Part shown: positions 17,243 through 48,032 of the stretch, piece by piece
How the letters are laid out: every line of letters starts with the position of its first letter
How positions within the stretch are numbered: the stretch's first letter is position 1
Assembly (NCBI RefSeq): GCF_012034175.1
Contig: NZ_JAATEJ010000007.1
Location: forward strand, 1 to 64,000
Direction: 5' to 3'
Source of the DNA: Actinacidiphila epipremni
Lineage (GTDB): Bacteria > Actinomycetota > Actinomycetes > Streptomycetales > Streptomycetaceae
DNA length: 64,000 bases
Notes under the pieces: generated by a model
Told to the model about the DNA's origin: nothing
Databases searched by the model: none
What the model saw: only the letters and a program-made list of their open reading frames with translations
Program-made: the position numbers and the translations under genes

Positions 17243-17396
17243 GGGCCGACTGTATTACGGCCGCGGTGCCGCCCTTCCTCCCACCCCCGTCCCGCCGCCC
17301 GCCGACCGTCACGCCGCCATGGCCACCCTGTGTCCGGATAATGAACAAGGCGCCCGGATTTCGGGACGGCGCGCGGGGTCTGGTTTACTGGGACCC

Positions 17397-17495
17397 ATGA
17401 CCACGACGAAACGCCGCAATCGCGCCACCGAGGCAGCCATGCCCGGTGTTCGTCGTATGTGTCGCATGTGCCACATGTGCCGAATGTGTGCCTGA
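17397..17495 (+). CDS. Met/Cys-rich leader peptide (candidate attenuator uORF)
   Basis: 32 codons, ending with the pattern MCRMCHMCRMC (four Met-Cys pairs) just before the stop, 173 bases upstream of metN. A TTTACT box at 17382-17387 ends 9 bases before the ATG, so the mRNA may be leaderless. A GATAAT at 17336-17341 is an alternative promoter. Leaderless poly-Cys uORFs acting as cysteine-responsive attenuators are known in mycobacteria. Here Met and Cys codons alternate, which fits control of a methionine importer. No peptide evidence is possible from sequence. Confidence 0.65.
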   Translation: MTTTKRRNRATEAAMPGVRRMCRMCHMCRMCA

Positions 17496-17550
17496 CCTGA
17501 GGCCCTGAGCGGCGCCCCGCCCGGCGCCGCCGCCCACGTCGGACCCTCCC

Positions 17551-17586
17551 GTTCCGGAGCGGCGCGCCACGCCGCGCCGCCGGAAC
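17551..17586 (+). promoter_or_regulatory. Leader hairpin between the Met/Cys uORF and metN
   Basis: GCGGCGCG (17559-17566) pairs with CGCGCCGC (17573-17580), and GTTCCG (17551-17556) with CGGAAC (17581-17586), around a GA bulge and a 6-base loop. A shorter GGCGCC/GGCGCC repeat lies at 17511-17528. Likely terminator or anti-terminator of a ribosome-controlled leader. Confidence 0.55.
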
Positions 17587-17668
17587 CCCGTGGCAGCCGG
17601 CCGACCCGCGCCACGCCTTCCGAGCACACCCCCTGCGCGGTGGTCCGTCCACCGCGCGCCCGACCACC

Positions 17669-18730
17669 ATGGACACCCCTGTGATCACCACCACCGCCCT
17701 GCGCAAGGTCTACCGCTCGCGCGACCGCGAGATCACCGCACTCGACGGCGTGGACCTCACCGTCCGCGAAGGCGAGGTCTACGGCGTCGTCGGCCGCAGC
17801 GGCGCCGGCAAGAGCACCTTGATCCGCTGCGTCAACCTGCTGGAGCGCCCCACCTCCGGCACCGTCGAGGTCGCCGGGCGCGACCTGACCGCGCTCGCCG
17901 GCCGCTCCGACCGCGCGCCCGCCGCGCTGCGCGCCGCCCGGGCCGGCATCGGCATGGTCTTCCAGCACTTCAACCTGCTCTCCTCGCGCACCGTCCAGGA
18001 CAACGTCGAGCTGCCGCTGGAGATCCTCGGCGTCACCCGCCGCGAGCGCGCCGCCCGGGCCCGCGACCTGCTCGACCTCGTCGGGCTCGCCGACAAGGCC
18101 CGCGCCTACCCCGCGCAGCTGTCCGGCGGCCAGAAGCAGCGCGTCGGCATCGCCCGCGCGCTCGCCGGCCGGCCGCGGGTGCTGCTCTCCGACGAGGCCA
18201 CCTCGGCGCTCGACCCGGAGACCACCCGCTCGGTCCTGGAACTGCTGCGCGACCTCAACCGGCAGCTCGGCCTGACCGTGCTGCTCATCACCCACGAGAT
18301 GGATGTCGTCAAGGCCGTGTGCGACTCGGCGGCCCTCATGAAAGGCGGACGCGTGGTGGAATCCGGCACCGTCGCGGAACTGCTGGCCACTCCCGGCTCG
18401 GAGCTGGCCGACGCGCTCTTCCCGGTCGGCGGCACCGCCTCCGGGCCCGACCGCACCGTCGTGGACCTCACCTTCCACGGCGACAGCGCGACCCGGCCGG
18501 TGATCTCCCGGCTGGCCCGTACGTACAACGTCGACGTGTCGATCCTCGGCGCGGCCATGGAGACCTACGACGGCCGGCAGATCGGCCGGATGCGCATCGA
18601 GCTGCCCGGGCGCTTCGAGGACAACGTCGTGCCCATCGGCTACCTGCGCGAGCAGGGCCTCCAGGTCGACATCGCGCCGGAGGCGACCGCGGAACCCGTC
18701 ACCGGGGAGCCGGCGGCGGTGGGCAAGTGA
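17669..18730 (+). CDS. metN: Methionine ABC transporter ATP-binding protein
   Basis: 353 residues from the ATG at 17669. Walker A GRSGAGKST (about 43-51), Q-loop near MVFQHFNLL, signature LSGGQKQR, Walker B LLSDEAT and H-loop THEMD are all present. The C-terminal region (about 260-340) is the NIL domain that senses methionine and inhibits transport. Overlaps metI by GTGA. Confidence 0.95.
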   Translation: MDTPVITTTALRKVYRSRDREITALDGVDLTVREGEVYGVVGRSGAGKSTLIRCVNLLERPTSGTVEVAGRDLTALAGRSDRAPAALRAARAGIGMVFQHFNLLSSRTVQDNVELPLEILGVTRRERAARARDLLDLVGLADKARAYPAQLSGGQKQRVGIARALAGRPRVLLSDEATSALDPETTRSVLELLRDLNRQLGLTVLLITHEMDVVKAVCDSAALMKGGRVVESGTVAELLATPGSELADALFPVGGTASGPDRTVVDLTFHGDSATRPVISRLARTYNVDVSILGAAMETYDGRQIGRMRIELPGRFEDNVVPIGYLREQGLQVDIAPEATAEPVTGEPAAVGK

Positions 18731-19464
18731 CCTGGTCCGAGATGCACCCGCTGCTCACCCAGGCGCTCGGCGACACGCTGCGGATGGTCGGCTGGTCCGC
18801 CGCCGTCACCGTCGCCGCCGGGCTGCCGCTCGGGGTGCTGCTGGTGCTCACCGACCGCGGCGGGCTGCTGCGCAACCTCGCCGTCAACAAGGTCCTCGCC
18901 GCGGTGGTCAACCTCGGCAGGTCGCTGCCGTTCGTGATCCTCATGATCGCCCTGATGTCCTTCACCCGGGCGGTCGTCGGCACCACCATCGGCTGGCAGG
19001 CCGCCGTCGTCCCGCTGTCGGTCGGCGCCGTCCCGTTCTTCGCCCGGCTCGTGGAGACCTCGCTGCGCGAGGTCGACCACGGCCTGGTCGAGGCCGTCCA
19101 GGCGATGGGCGGCAGTACGTGGACGGTCGTCCGCAAGGTGCTGCTGCCCGAATCCCTCGCCTCGCTCGTCGCCGGCGCCACCACCACCGTCATCGCGCTC
19201 ATCGGCTACTCCGCGATGGCCGGCGTGGTCGGCGGCGGCGGGCTCGGCGACCTGGCGCTGCGCTACGGCTACCAGCGCTTCGAGACCGGCTTCATGTGGG
19301 TCATCGTCGCCGTCCTCGTCGTGCTCGTCACCCTCGTCCAGCTCGCCGGCGACCTCGCCGCCCGGGCCGTCGCCCGCCGCGGCCGGACCTCCGCCGCGCC
19401 CCGGCTGCGCCTGCTGCGCACGGGCGCGGCCCCCTCGTCCCCCTCGGCCCCCTCGACCACCTGA
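18727..19464 (+). CDS. metI: Methionine ABC transporter permease
   Basis: 245 residues, GTG at 18727 overlapping the metN stop. About five membrane segments, with the permease EAA motif visible as EAVQAMGGSTWTVVRKVLLP. The cytoplasmic C-terminal tail (about 215-245) is Ser/Pro/Arg-rich and longer than in typical MetI. Confidence 0.94.
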   Translation: MTWSEMHPLLTQALGDTLRMVGWSAAVTVAAGLPLGVLLVLTDRGGLLRNLAVNKVLAAVVNLGRSLPFVILMIALMSFTRAVVGTTIGWQAAVVPLSVGAVPFFARLVETSLREVDHGLVEAVQAMGGSTWTVVRKVLLPESLASLVAGATTTVIALIGYSAMAGVVGGGGLGDLALRYGYQRFETGFMWVIVAVLVVLVTLVQLAGDLAARAVARRGRTSAAPRLRLLRTGAAPSSPSAPSTT

Positions 19465-19524: not shown

Positions 19525-20397
19525 GTGCGTAGCACCGTCAAGATCACGACCGTCGCCGCCGTCGCGGCAGCCCTCGCGCTGGGCCTGGCCGCCTGCGGCT
19601 CGGGCTCCGGCTCCGGGACCTCCAGCAAGGCCGACGGCAAGGCCGCCCAGGACGCCTCGGCGCCGCTGGTCGTCGCCGCCAGCCCCACCCCGCACGCCCG
19701 CATCCTGGACTACGTCCGCGACCACCTCGCCAAGAGCGCGGGCCTGGACCTCCAGGTCAAGGAGTTCTCCGACTACGTCCTGCCCAACACCGCCACCGAG
19801 CAGGGCCAGGTCGACGCCAACTTCTTCCAGCACAAGCCGTACCTCGACGACTTCAACAAGAAGAACGGCACCCACCTGGTGCCGGTCGCCGACGTCGAAC
19901 TCGAACCGCTCGGCCTGTACTCGCACAAGGCCGGCTCGCTGTCCGCGCTCAAGGACGGCGCCACGATCGAGGTGCCCAACGACACCACCAACGAGGCCCG
20001 CGCGCTGGACCTGCTCGCCGCGGGCGGCCTGATCACGCTGCGGGACGGCGCCGGCCAGAGCGCCACCCCGGCCGACATCACCGGCAACCCCAGGCACCTG
20101 AAGTTCAAGGAACTGGAGGCGGCCCAGCTGCCGCGCTCCCTCGGCGACGTCGACGCCGGCGTCATCAACGGCAACTACGCCATCGAGGGCGGCCTGAACC
20201 CCGCCAAGGACGCGCTGGTGACGGAGAAGGCCGCCGGCAACCCGTACGCCAACATCCTGGTCGTCAAGCAGGGCAGGGAGAACGACCCGCGGGTGCGCAA
20301 GCTCGTCGAGCTGCTGAACTCGCCGCAGGTCGAGCAGTTCATCAAGGACACCTTCAAGGGCGCGGTCGTCCCGGCGTTCGGCACCCCCGCCGCCTGA
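19525..20397 (+). CDS. metQ: Methionine-binding lipoprotein (NlpA/MetQ family)
   Basis: 290 residues, GTG at 19525. A lipoprotein signal peptide with lipobox LAAC (Cys24) anchors it outside the membrane. The NlpA-type body includes ASPTPHARILDYV and QVDANFFQHKPYLDDF, typical of MetQ. Sixty bases downstream of metI in the same transcription unit. Ends before a 16-bp terminator. Confidence 0.94.
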   Translation: MRSTVKITTVAAVAAALALGLAACGSGSGSGTSSKADGKAAQDASAPLVVAASPTPHARILDYVRDHLAKSAGLDLQVKEFSDYVLPNTATEQGQVDANFFQHKPYLDDFNKKNGTHLVPVADVELEPLGLYSHKAGSLSALKDGATIEVPNDTTNEARALDLLAAGGLITLRDGAGQSATPADITGNPRHLKFKELEAAQLPRSLGDVDAGVINGNYAIEGGLNPAKDALVTEKAAGNPYANILVVKQGRENDPRVRKLVELLNSPQVEQFIKDTFKGAVVPAFGTPAA

Positions 20398-39872: not shown

Positions 39873-39944
39873 TGGACGATACTGGGATTGAACCAGTGAC
39901 CTCTTCCGTGTCAGGGAAGCGCTCTCCCGCTGAGCTAATCGTCC
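39873..39944 (-). tRNA. tRNA-Val (GAC)
   Basis: 72 nt on the reverse strand. Acceptor GGACGAT/ATCGTCC, anticodon loop with GAC, T-arm TGGTTCAATCC type. Last of three tandem Val(GAC) genes. The 3' CCA is not encoded. Confidence 0.95.
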
Positions 39945-39978
39945 TCGGGTCCCGGCCGCCGGGGGCGCCGGTGCCTGG

Positions 39979-40050
39979 TGCGCGATACTGGGATTGAACC
40001 AGTGACCTCTTCCGTGTCAGGGAAGCGCTCTCCCGCTGAGCTAATCGCGC
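39979..40050 (-). tRNA. tRNA-Val (GAC), variant acceptor stem
   Basis: 72 nt. The body is identical to its two neighbours, but the acceptor is GCGCGAT/ATCGCGC, with compensated changes at pairs 2 and 3. Confidence 0.95.
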
Positions 40051-40081
40051 GGGTCTCCTGCTCGGGGCCGGTGGGCCCCCG

Positions 40082-40153
40082 TGGACGATACTGGGATTGA
40101 ACCAGTGACCTCTTCCGTGTCAGGGAAGCGCTCTCCCGCTGAGCTAATCGTCC
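40082..40153 (-). tRNA. tRNA-Val (GAC)
   Basis: 72 nt, acceptor GGACGAT/ATCGTCC; same as the copy at 39873. Confidence 0.95.
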
Positions 40154-40157
40154 TTGG

Positions 40158-40228
40158 AGGTGGAGACGGGATTTGAACCCGTGTAGACGGCTTTGCAGGC
40201 CGTTGCCTCGCCTCTCGGCCACTCCACC
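40158..40228 (-). tRNA. tRNA-Cys (GCA)
   Basis: 71 nt, acceptor GGTGGAG/CTCCACC with discriminator T; anticodon GCA in the CTGCAAA loop. Four bases separate it from the next tRNA-Val. Confidence 0.95.
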
Positions 40229-40264
40229 ACAGCGCGGAGGGTCCCGGGAGGATCCCCCACATCG

Positions 40265-40337
40265 AGCGGACGACGAGATTCGAACTCGCGACCCTCACCT
40301 TGGCAAGGTGATGCTCTACCAACTGAGCCACGTCCGC
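40265..40337 (-). tRNA. tRNA-Gly (GCC)
   Basis: 73 nt, acceptor GCGGACG/CGTCCGC, discriminator T, anticodon GCC. First gene of the Gly-Cys-Val-Val-Val transcript. Useful comparison for the permuted Gly-like RNA at 2492, which shares U73 and the C2-G71 acceptor. Confidence 0.95.
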
Positions 40338-47251: not shown

Positions 47252-47323
47252 GGGCGATTAGCTCAGCGGGAGAGCACTTCGTTCACACCGAAGGGGTCAC
47301 TGGTTCGATCCCAGTATCGCCCA
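47252..47323 (+). tRNA. tRNA-Val (CAC)
   Basis: 72 nt, acceptor GGGCGAT/ATCGCCC, anticodon CAC in the TTCACAC loop, discriminator A. Identical to the copy at 47961. Confidence 0.95.
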
Positions 47324-47329
47324 CCCGGA

Positions 47330-47371
47330 CCGAGGGTCCCGGAGCCGTTCCTACAGCTCCGGGACCCTCGG
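47330..47371 (+). terminator. Terminator after first tRNA-Val(CAC)
   Basis: 16-bp perfect stem CCGAGGGTCCCGGAGC (47330-47345) / GCTCCGGGACCCTCGG (47356-47371), 10-base loop. Confidence 0.85.
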
Positions 47372-47448
47372 CGTTCTCCTGCCCCGGACGAGCGCCCCGC
47401 TGCGTGGAATCCACCCCGGGCGGCCCGCCCACCGCGCACACTGAGCCC

Positions 47449-47922
47449 ATGGACTGGTCCATGGACTGGAGTCACTACCGATTCCACAGCGTCTGGCCGC
47501 TGGAGGCCGACCCCGACGCCGTCTACCGCGTCCTGGAACGCCCCGACTTCTACCCCCAGTGGTGGCCGCAGATCCGCGAGGTCACCCAGACCGGCGAGAC
47601 CACCGGCATCCTGCGCTTCCGCTCCGTCCTCCCGTACGACCTCGTCGTCACCGCCCGCTCCACCCGCCAGGACCCCGCCCGCCGCATCCTCGAAGTCGCC
47701 ATGACCGGCGACCTGGAGGGCTGGGTCCGCTGGACCGTCACCCCCGCCCGCCCCGGCACCCTCCTCCACTTCGACCAGGAAGTCGACGTCCGCAAACCCC
47801 TGATGCGCCGCCTCGCCCTCCCCGGCCGCCCCTTCTTCCTCGCCAACCACACCCTGATGATGCGCGCCGGCCACCACGGCCTCCGCACCCGCCTCCAGGC
47901 CCCGCCACCCCATGTCATTTGA
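47449..47922 (+). CDS. SRPBCC family (START-like) protein
   Basis: 157 residues, ATG at 47449. The SRPBCC/polyketide-cyclase-like helix-grip pattern is visible: SVWPLEADPDAVYRVLERPDFYPQWWPQIREV, followed by alternating strands and a long C-terminal helix with FLANHTLMMRAGHHGLR. Ligand unknown. Lies between the two identical tRNA-Val copies. Confidence 0.85.
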   Translation: MDWSMDWSHYRFHSVWPLEADPDAVYRVLERPDFYPQWWPQIREVTQTGETTGILRFRSVLPYDLVVTARSTRQDPARRILEVAMTGDLEGWVRWTVTPARPGTLLHFDQEVDVRKPLMRRLALPGRPFFLANHTLMMRAGHHGLRTRLQAPPPHVI

Positions 47923-47960
47923 ACGCGGCCCGCGTTCACCTGTAAGGTTCTTCCCATCCC

Positions 47961-48032
47961 GGGCGATTAGCTCAGCGGGAGAGCACTTCGTTCACACCGA
48001 AGGGGTCACTGGTTCGATCCCAGTATCGCCCA
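47961..48032 (+). tRNA. tRNA-Val (CAC), second copy
   Basis: 72 nt, identical to 47252-47323. Marks the edge of the decayed accessory patch that begins about 48.1 kb. Confidence 0.95.

Follow-up and report, generated by a model that had tools for sequence, protein, structure and literature searches.

A leader peptide with Met and Cys control codons, probably leaderless, is conserved upstream of metNIQ in Streptomycetaceae

The window, i.e., the whole stretch of 64,000 nucleotides analyzed here from Actinacidiphila epipremni, carries a methionine importer operon on its plus strand, consisting of the following genes.

17681..18730, plus strand: metN, methionine ABC transporter ATPase with NIL domain, starting at a conserved GTG (TIGR02314, PF00005, PF09383)
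18727..19464, plus strand: metI, permease (PF00528)
19525..20397, plus strand: metQ, NlpA/MetQ substrate-binding lipoprotein (TIGR00363 and MetQ models; PF03180, E = 2.8e-93)

The metN product matched TIGR02314 with an E value of 9e-108, below the curated cut-off of that model, and contained both the ABC_tran (PF00005) and the NIL (PF09383) domains. Considering that GTG 17681 is conserved in the alignment of relatives and ATG 17669 is not, the former is most likely the metN start, with a GGA upstream at 17671-17673. Elsewhere in the window, a cluster of five tRNA genes was located on the minus strand (39873-40337), and the plus strand carries two equal-scoring tRNA genes separated by about 700 bases (47252-48032).

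Upstream of the operon, three features define a short leader.

17381..17389, plus strand: extended -10 element TGG-TTTACT, ending 7 nt upstream of the leader ATG, conserved in relatives
17397..17495, plus strand: leader ORF of 32 codons plus TGA, MTTTKRRNRATEAAMPGVRRMCRMCHMCRMCA, recognized from the sequence, its homologues, and frame-preserving length changes
17457..17489, plus strand: Met/Cys control-codon cluster MCRMCHMCRMC, recognized from codon counts and relatives; the core conserved elsewhere is CMCRMC

The initial annotation had described a 32-codon ORF that ends in MCRMCHMCRMCA ahead of metNIQ, and the sequence contains it exactly so. At the local codon frequencies (Met, 1.55%; Cys, 0.81%), only ∼4e-9 occurrences of an MCxMCxMCxMC run would be expected in all frames of the 8.25-Mb genome. 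The motif ATGTGYCGNATGTGY occurs at three sites genome-wide, two of which belong to the window leader, while the third lies inside a 131-codon open frame, unlike the short leader ORF. In the sampled congeners the tails are shorter, conforming to MCRMC[AD] or a variant thereof, and the window leader exceeds them by 18 bases, corresponding to two added Met-Cys pairs. Judged by these sequences, the fourfold Met-Cys run represents an expansion, specific to this lineage, of a conserved MCRMC core and is unique among the sampled species. Extra MCR units were also observed in other lineages, e.g., CMCRMCRMCAF and CMCRLMCRMCAF, and the Met-Cys unit thus seems prone to expansion.

A -10-like box had been proposed 9 bases before the ATG; the box itself, TTTACT (17384-17389), was recovered and additionally carries a TGN extension, but its end lies 7 nt from the ATG. 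Among 153 distinct relatives, the hexamer was TTTACT in 136 and otherwise TATAGT, TTAACT, or TTTAAT, with a box-to-ATG distance of 6 to 7 nt in all of them and a TGN preceding the hexamer in 146. In Streptomyces lividans TK24, the orthologous leader metL was found to be leaderless by RNA-seq and has been listed as a metNIQ attenuator without a typical terminator (PMC8079986). The suggestion of a leaderless transcript is therefore supported by both the -10 geometry conserved in relatives and the start mapped by RNA-seq in S. lividans (PMC8079986), the only organism in which this start has been measured, with the window providing an extended -10 box at matching spacing.

A covariance model of the leader, built from 20 relatives, found a single match in each of 257 Streptomycetaceae genomes out of 297 and matched 21 of the 35 species of the window's genus; in a class-wide sample, matches were found in only 3 of 91 genera, one of them through a weak partial match. 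All 21 matches in the window's genus occurred with metN or with a metN remnant or fragment, and the 14 genomes of this genus without a match had no metN orthologue, with the exception of G016. G016 (L002/L160) has an intact metN but has lost the promoter along with most of the leader ORF, of which just MCRMCA is left, constituting a natural leader deletion. In G021 (L158; G021:C1:6694900-6699500), the leader precedes a metN remnant from which a large internal part has been lost, neither metI nor metQ follows closely, and to judge from its sequence this locus is a decaying operon that has retained its control element. Divergent leader forms were detected in Kitasatospora-like genera as well as a second family (f3, eight genomes), whose leaders carry TATAGT at the same spacing from the ATG; seven of the eight f3 leaders were tied to metN, and they end in CRMCSC, CRMCGC, or CRMYGC. 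A scan of genome contigs with MetN returned mostly distant MetN proteins and few from Streptomyces. The Met-Cys pattern, which the initial annotation had singled out for comparison, proved to be conserved when the metN upstream regions of relatives were aligned.

The length changes between species point to translation of the ORF, with the distance from the CCCGGTG block to the CGAATG block being variable and yet a multiple of 3 in 140 of 141 cases. Both Met and Cys occur within the last 12 codons of all 131 distinct leaders, although this universality, like that of the -10 box, is partly built in, since the set was partly selected for Cys/Met tails and the -10 box (the covariance-model matches were chosen otherwise). 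Rare codons were strongly represented in the tails: UGU accounted for 263 of 406 Cys codons (65%, versus 4% in the window genes) and CGA for 136 of 337 Arg codons (40%, versus 1.7%). Moreover, CGAATG, in which ATG follows the rare Arg codon CGA, was invariant in 131/131 distinct leaders whether or not complementarity to the metN ribosome-binding site (RBS; see below) was present, suggesting that another constraint acts on it. The encoded tails are less uniform, with MC replaced by RC, LC, or AC in some leaders, while the nucleotides CGAATG and the pairing arms are unchanged. Such comparison supports, at the sequence level, a leader ORF that is translated and conserved across a family, i.e., a short ORF rich in the relevant codons upstream of an amino-acid gene, as would characterize an attenuator.

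The pairing arms belong to a helix within the ORF, and further hairpins occupy the 5' untranslated region (UTR) of metN.

17403..17411, plus strand: 5' arm of the in-ORF helix (codons 3 to 5), from pairing and double changes in relatives
17427..17447, plus strand: internal hairpin ACCGAGGCA-GCCA-TGCCCGGT, flanked by the two arms of the in-ORF helix, from relatives
17448..17456, plus strand: 3' arm of the in-ORF helix, immediately 5' of the Met/Cys codons, from pairing and double changes in relatives
17510..17529, plus strand: post-stop hairpin CGGCGCC/GGCGCCG, from the sequence
17551..17586, plus strand: second strong UTR hairpin GTTCCGG...CCGGAAC, from the sequence; its conservation in relatives is not clear
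17634..17659, plus strand: hairpin abutting the metN RBS on its 5' side, TGCGCGGTGG-TCCGT-CCACCGCGCG, predicted in relatives
17655..17677, plus strand: RBS box CGCGC-CCGACC-ACCATGGACACC, complementary to the Met/Cys segment in register pairing, a putative sequestration site

In 60 distinct sequences, 97% of the cells of the in-ORF helix were paired, with double changes at two base pairs (14 cells) that distinguish GAAC/GTTC in the window's genus from GAGC/GCTC in Streptomyces; 0 of 500 column shuffles was as good, a count that is not a strict probability because the sequences are related. The ACCGAGGCG/CGCCCGGT pairing of the internal hairpin was kept in 80 of 84 distinct leaders, and a G-C to A-T double change occurred in the window lineage. 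Single-sequence folding of several Kitasatospora-type and f3 leaders gave a topology resembling the in-ORF helix, with folding energies modestly better than those of shuffles, and in some cases no better. At the position of the post-stop hairpin, Streptomyces leaders carry CTCGC-GCCCCGAA-GCGAG, whereas another GC hairpin takes its place in the window's subclade; the CTCGC type or a fully paired variant was present in 121 of 156 distinct UTRs, including 4 double-changed copies. This Streptomyces hairpin (e.g., L190-L269), located ∼16 nt past the leader stop, has a near-invariant 8-nt loop and had no Rfam match. The hairpin next to the RBS was predicted for 120 of the 123 relatives, and its base pairs show exchanges of G-C to A-T and of T-A to C-G. 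Thus, the in-ORF helix and two 5'-UTR hairpins are supported by compensatory changes in the compared sequences. No terminator-like site was found on the plus strand, and T-runs of at least 4 occurred in just 6 of 123 related leaders; a classical transcription attenuator, composed of a hairpin and a U-run terminator, was rejected on these grounds.

The Met/Cys segment is complementary to the RBS box at 19 of 23 positions in the window's homologous register and at a mean of 20 of 23 positions in 141 relatives, being the best UTR window in 130 of these 141. Overall, 88% of the leader:RBS cells were paired compared with 32 to 46% in slid registers, in a register that was picked after inspecting the same sequences. 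Duplex energies of leader tail and RBS were mostly no better than those of dinucleotide shuffles, no double (compensatory) changes were found in this pairing and permutation showed no covariation, and ensemble folding with the Met/Cys segment masked gave no higher Shine-Dalgarno (SD) accessibility in Streptomyces. The pairing is therefore put forward as a hypothesis. In the window's genus, masking the early leader codons lowered SD accessibility from 0.35 to 0.20, and in Kitasatospora-type leaders RBS complementarity was not evident. In addition, the consensus fold of seven f3 sequences paired the AUGAUG (Met-Met) codons of the leader with the metN RBS and start, which is a suggestive second case of leader:RBS pairing.

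Taken by comparison, the locus shows a conserved and evidently translated ORF, control codons, a promoter placed for leaderless initiation, an in-ORF helix, and UTR hairpins, and we consider it likely that a leaderless leader peptide controls metNIQ through ribosome-mediated attenuation. The transcript would begin with the A of ATG 17397, and a ribosome would translate the short ORF. With too little charged Met-tRNA and/or Cys-tRNA available, this ribosome would stall on the terminal Met/Cys codons, which lie beside and inside an RNA segment that may otherwise pair with the start of the ORF (the in-ORF helix) and may be able to pair with the metN RBS box. The stalled ribosome would mask this segment, leaving the metN RBS free and the importer on, while with plentiful amino acids the ribosome would complete the ORF and the metN RBS could close. 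From this arrangement we infer that starvation is sensed, in which direction the importer responds, and that control is exerted at translation initiation and not on transcription. Regulation probably occurs at translation initiation, by analogy with mycobacterial polycysteine leaders, and opening of the RBS by the stalled ribosome is the most likely mode considering the lack of a terminator-like site on the plus strand and the scarcity of T-runs in relatives. The ribosome-dependent attenuation proposed initially is thus supported as far as a conserved control-codon leader upstream of metNIQ is concerned; a version that works through an intrinsic terminator is not supported. A more specific version, which we offer tentatively and regard as doubtful, is a dual sensor whose alternating Met and Cys codons would respond when either amino acid runs short, and in which the control-codon segment itself closes the metN RBS and the slow UGU-CGA-AUG serves as a built-in pause site.

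Attenuation might instead sense only Met or only Cys, with the other codon kept for RNA structure or decoding, a variant of the preferred explanation that does not exclude it and that we rate as quite possible, somewhat short of an even chance. The invariance of CGA-ATG is in keeping with such specialization, as are leaders with a single tail Met (22/131) or with only two Cys (34/131), whereas the presence of both residues in every leader, and of at least two of each in the tails of 109/131, argues against it. Transcription attenuation, in which the leader ribosome would set read-through versus Rho- or hairpin-dependent termination in the GC-rich leader rather than RBS access, appears rather unlikely. 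It could draw on the several stable and partly conserved hairpins between leader and metN, on a GC content of 75 to 85% with C over G in the 200 nt downstream of the leader, and on the Rho dependence proposed for mycobacterial cys leaders (PMC1262725); however, besides the missing intrinsic terminator and the few T-runs, the sequence around the RBS belongs to the most strongly conserved stretches of the UTR, and this conservation favors translation initiation instead.

S-box/SAM riboswitches control methionine genes, transport operons included, in Firmicutes. An incidental ORF within such a ligand-binding RNA (an unrecognized Met- or SAM-type riboswitch) might be suspected from the conserved hairpin with its near-invariant loop and from RNA-level conservation within the ORF, but is very improbable in view of the frame-keeping length changes, the Met/Cys codons in 131/131 leaders, and the conserved leaderless promoter spacing. 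Unlike those methionine-gene elements, the window leader has no Rfam match: searches of the window and eight relatives returned none even at E ≤ 1, SAM riboswitch models included, consistent with the initial annotation, in which no SAM riboswitch had been recognized. Likewise, no NCBIfam leader model matched. A peptide acting by itself, e.g., as a metal-binding, MC-rich micropeptide for which the place before metNIQ would be secondary, is the least credible reading, since the MC/CxxC-like pattern conserved in translation is outweighed by tails that vary over constant CGAATG and pairing arms and by the occurrence of the leader in the window's genus only with metN or its remnants.

The ribosome-mediated leader favored here belongs to an element type already known, because its S. 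lividans TK24 orthologue metL (SLIV_29928) has been published as a leaderless metNIQ attenuator (PMC8079986). The two share the position before metNIQ, several hairpins, the lack of a typical terminator (PMC8079986), and the same ORF design (ATEATTTPGARCMCRRMCAF against RATEAAMPGVRRMCRMCHMCRMCA), making them orthologous in position and peptide; the window leader differs by an 18-nt in-frame insertion with two more Met-Cys pairs. Cysteine, conservation, and RNA pairing do not come up in the metL report, which highlights methionine and threonine codons (PMC8079986). Mycobacterial polycysteine leaders (Canestrari et al. 2020), as described in later papers, are leaderless short ORFs with control codons, like the window leader, and act by translation attenuation, with the stalled ribosome thought to unmask a downstream Shine-Dalgarno site (PMC9031893, PMC13236596). 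According to the same papers, they have contiguous Cys codons before cysteine metabolism genes, whereas the window leader alternates Met and Cys before a methionine importer and its RBS unmasking is putative. Actinobacterial candidate cys leaders also have Cys codons near the stop and no terminators, but they precede cys/cbs genes rather than metNIQ, and for methionine operons no upstream RNA structures were reported in the survey that described these leaders (Seliverstov et al. 2005, PMC1262725). The present analysis adds the distribution of the leader, the occurrence of Cys codons in all leaders compared along with rare UGU and CGA, the covarying in-ORF helix and UTR hairpins, and the RBS complementarity. 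The suggested RBS switch thereby becomes testable with simple reporters in laboratory streptomycetes. A single S. lividans annotation turns out to belong to a family-wide element with constant Cys plus Met codons. With both kept throughout the family, uptake of methionine might be coupled through a single leader to the two sulfur amino acids.
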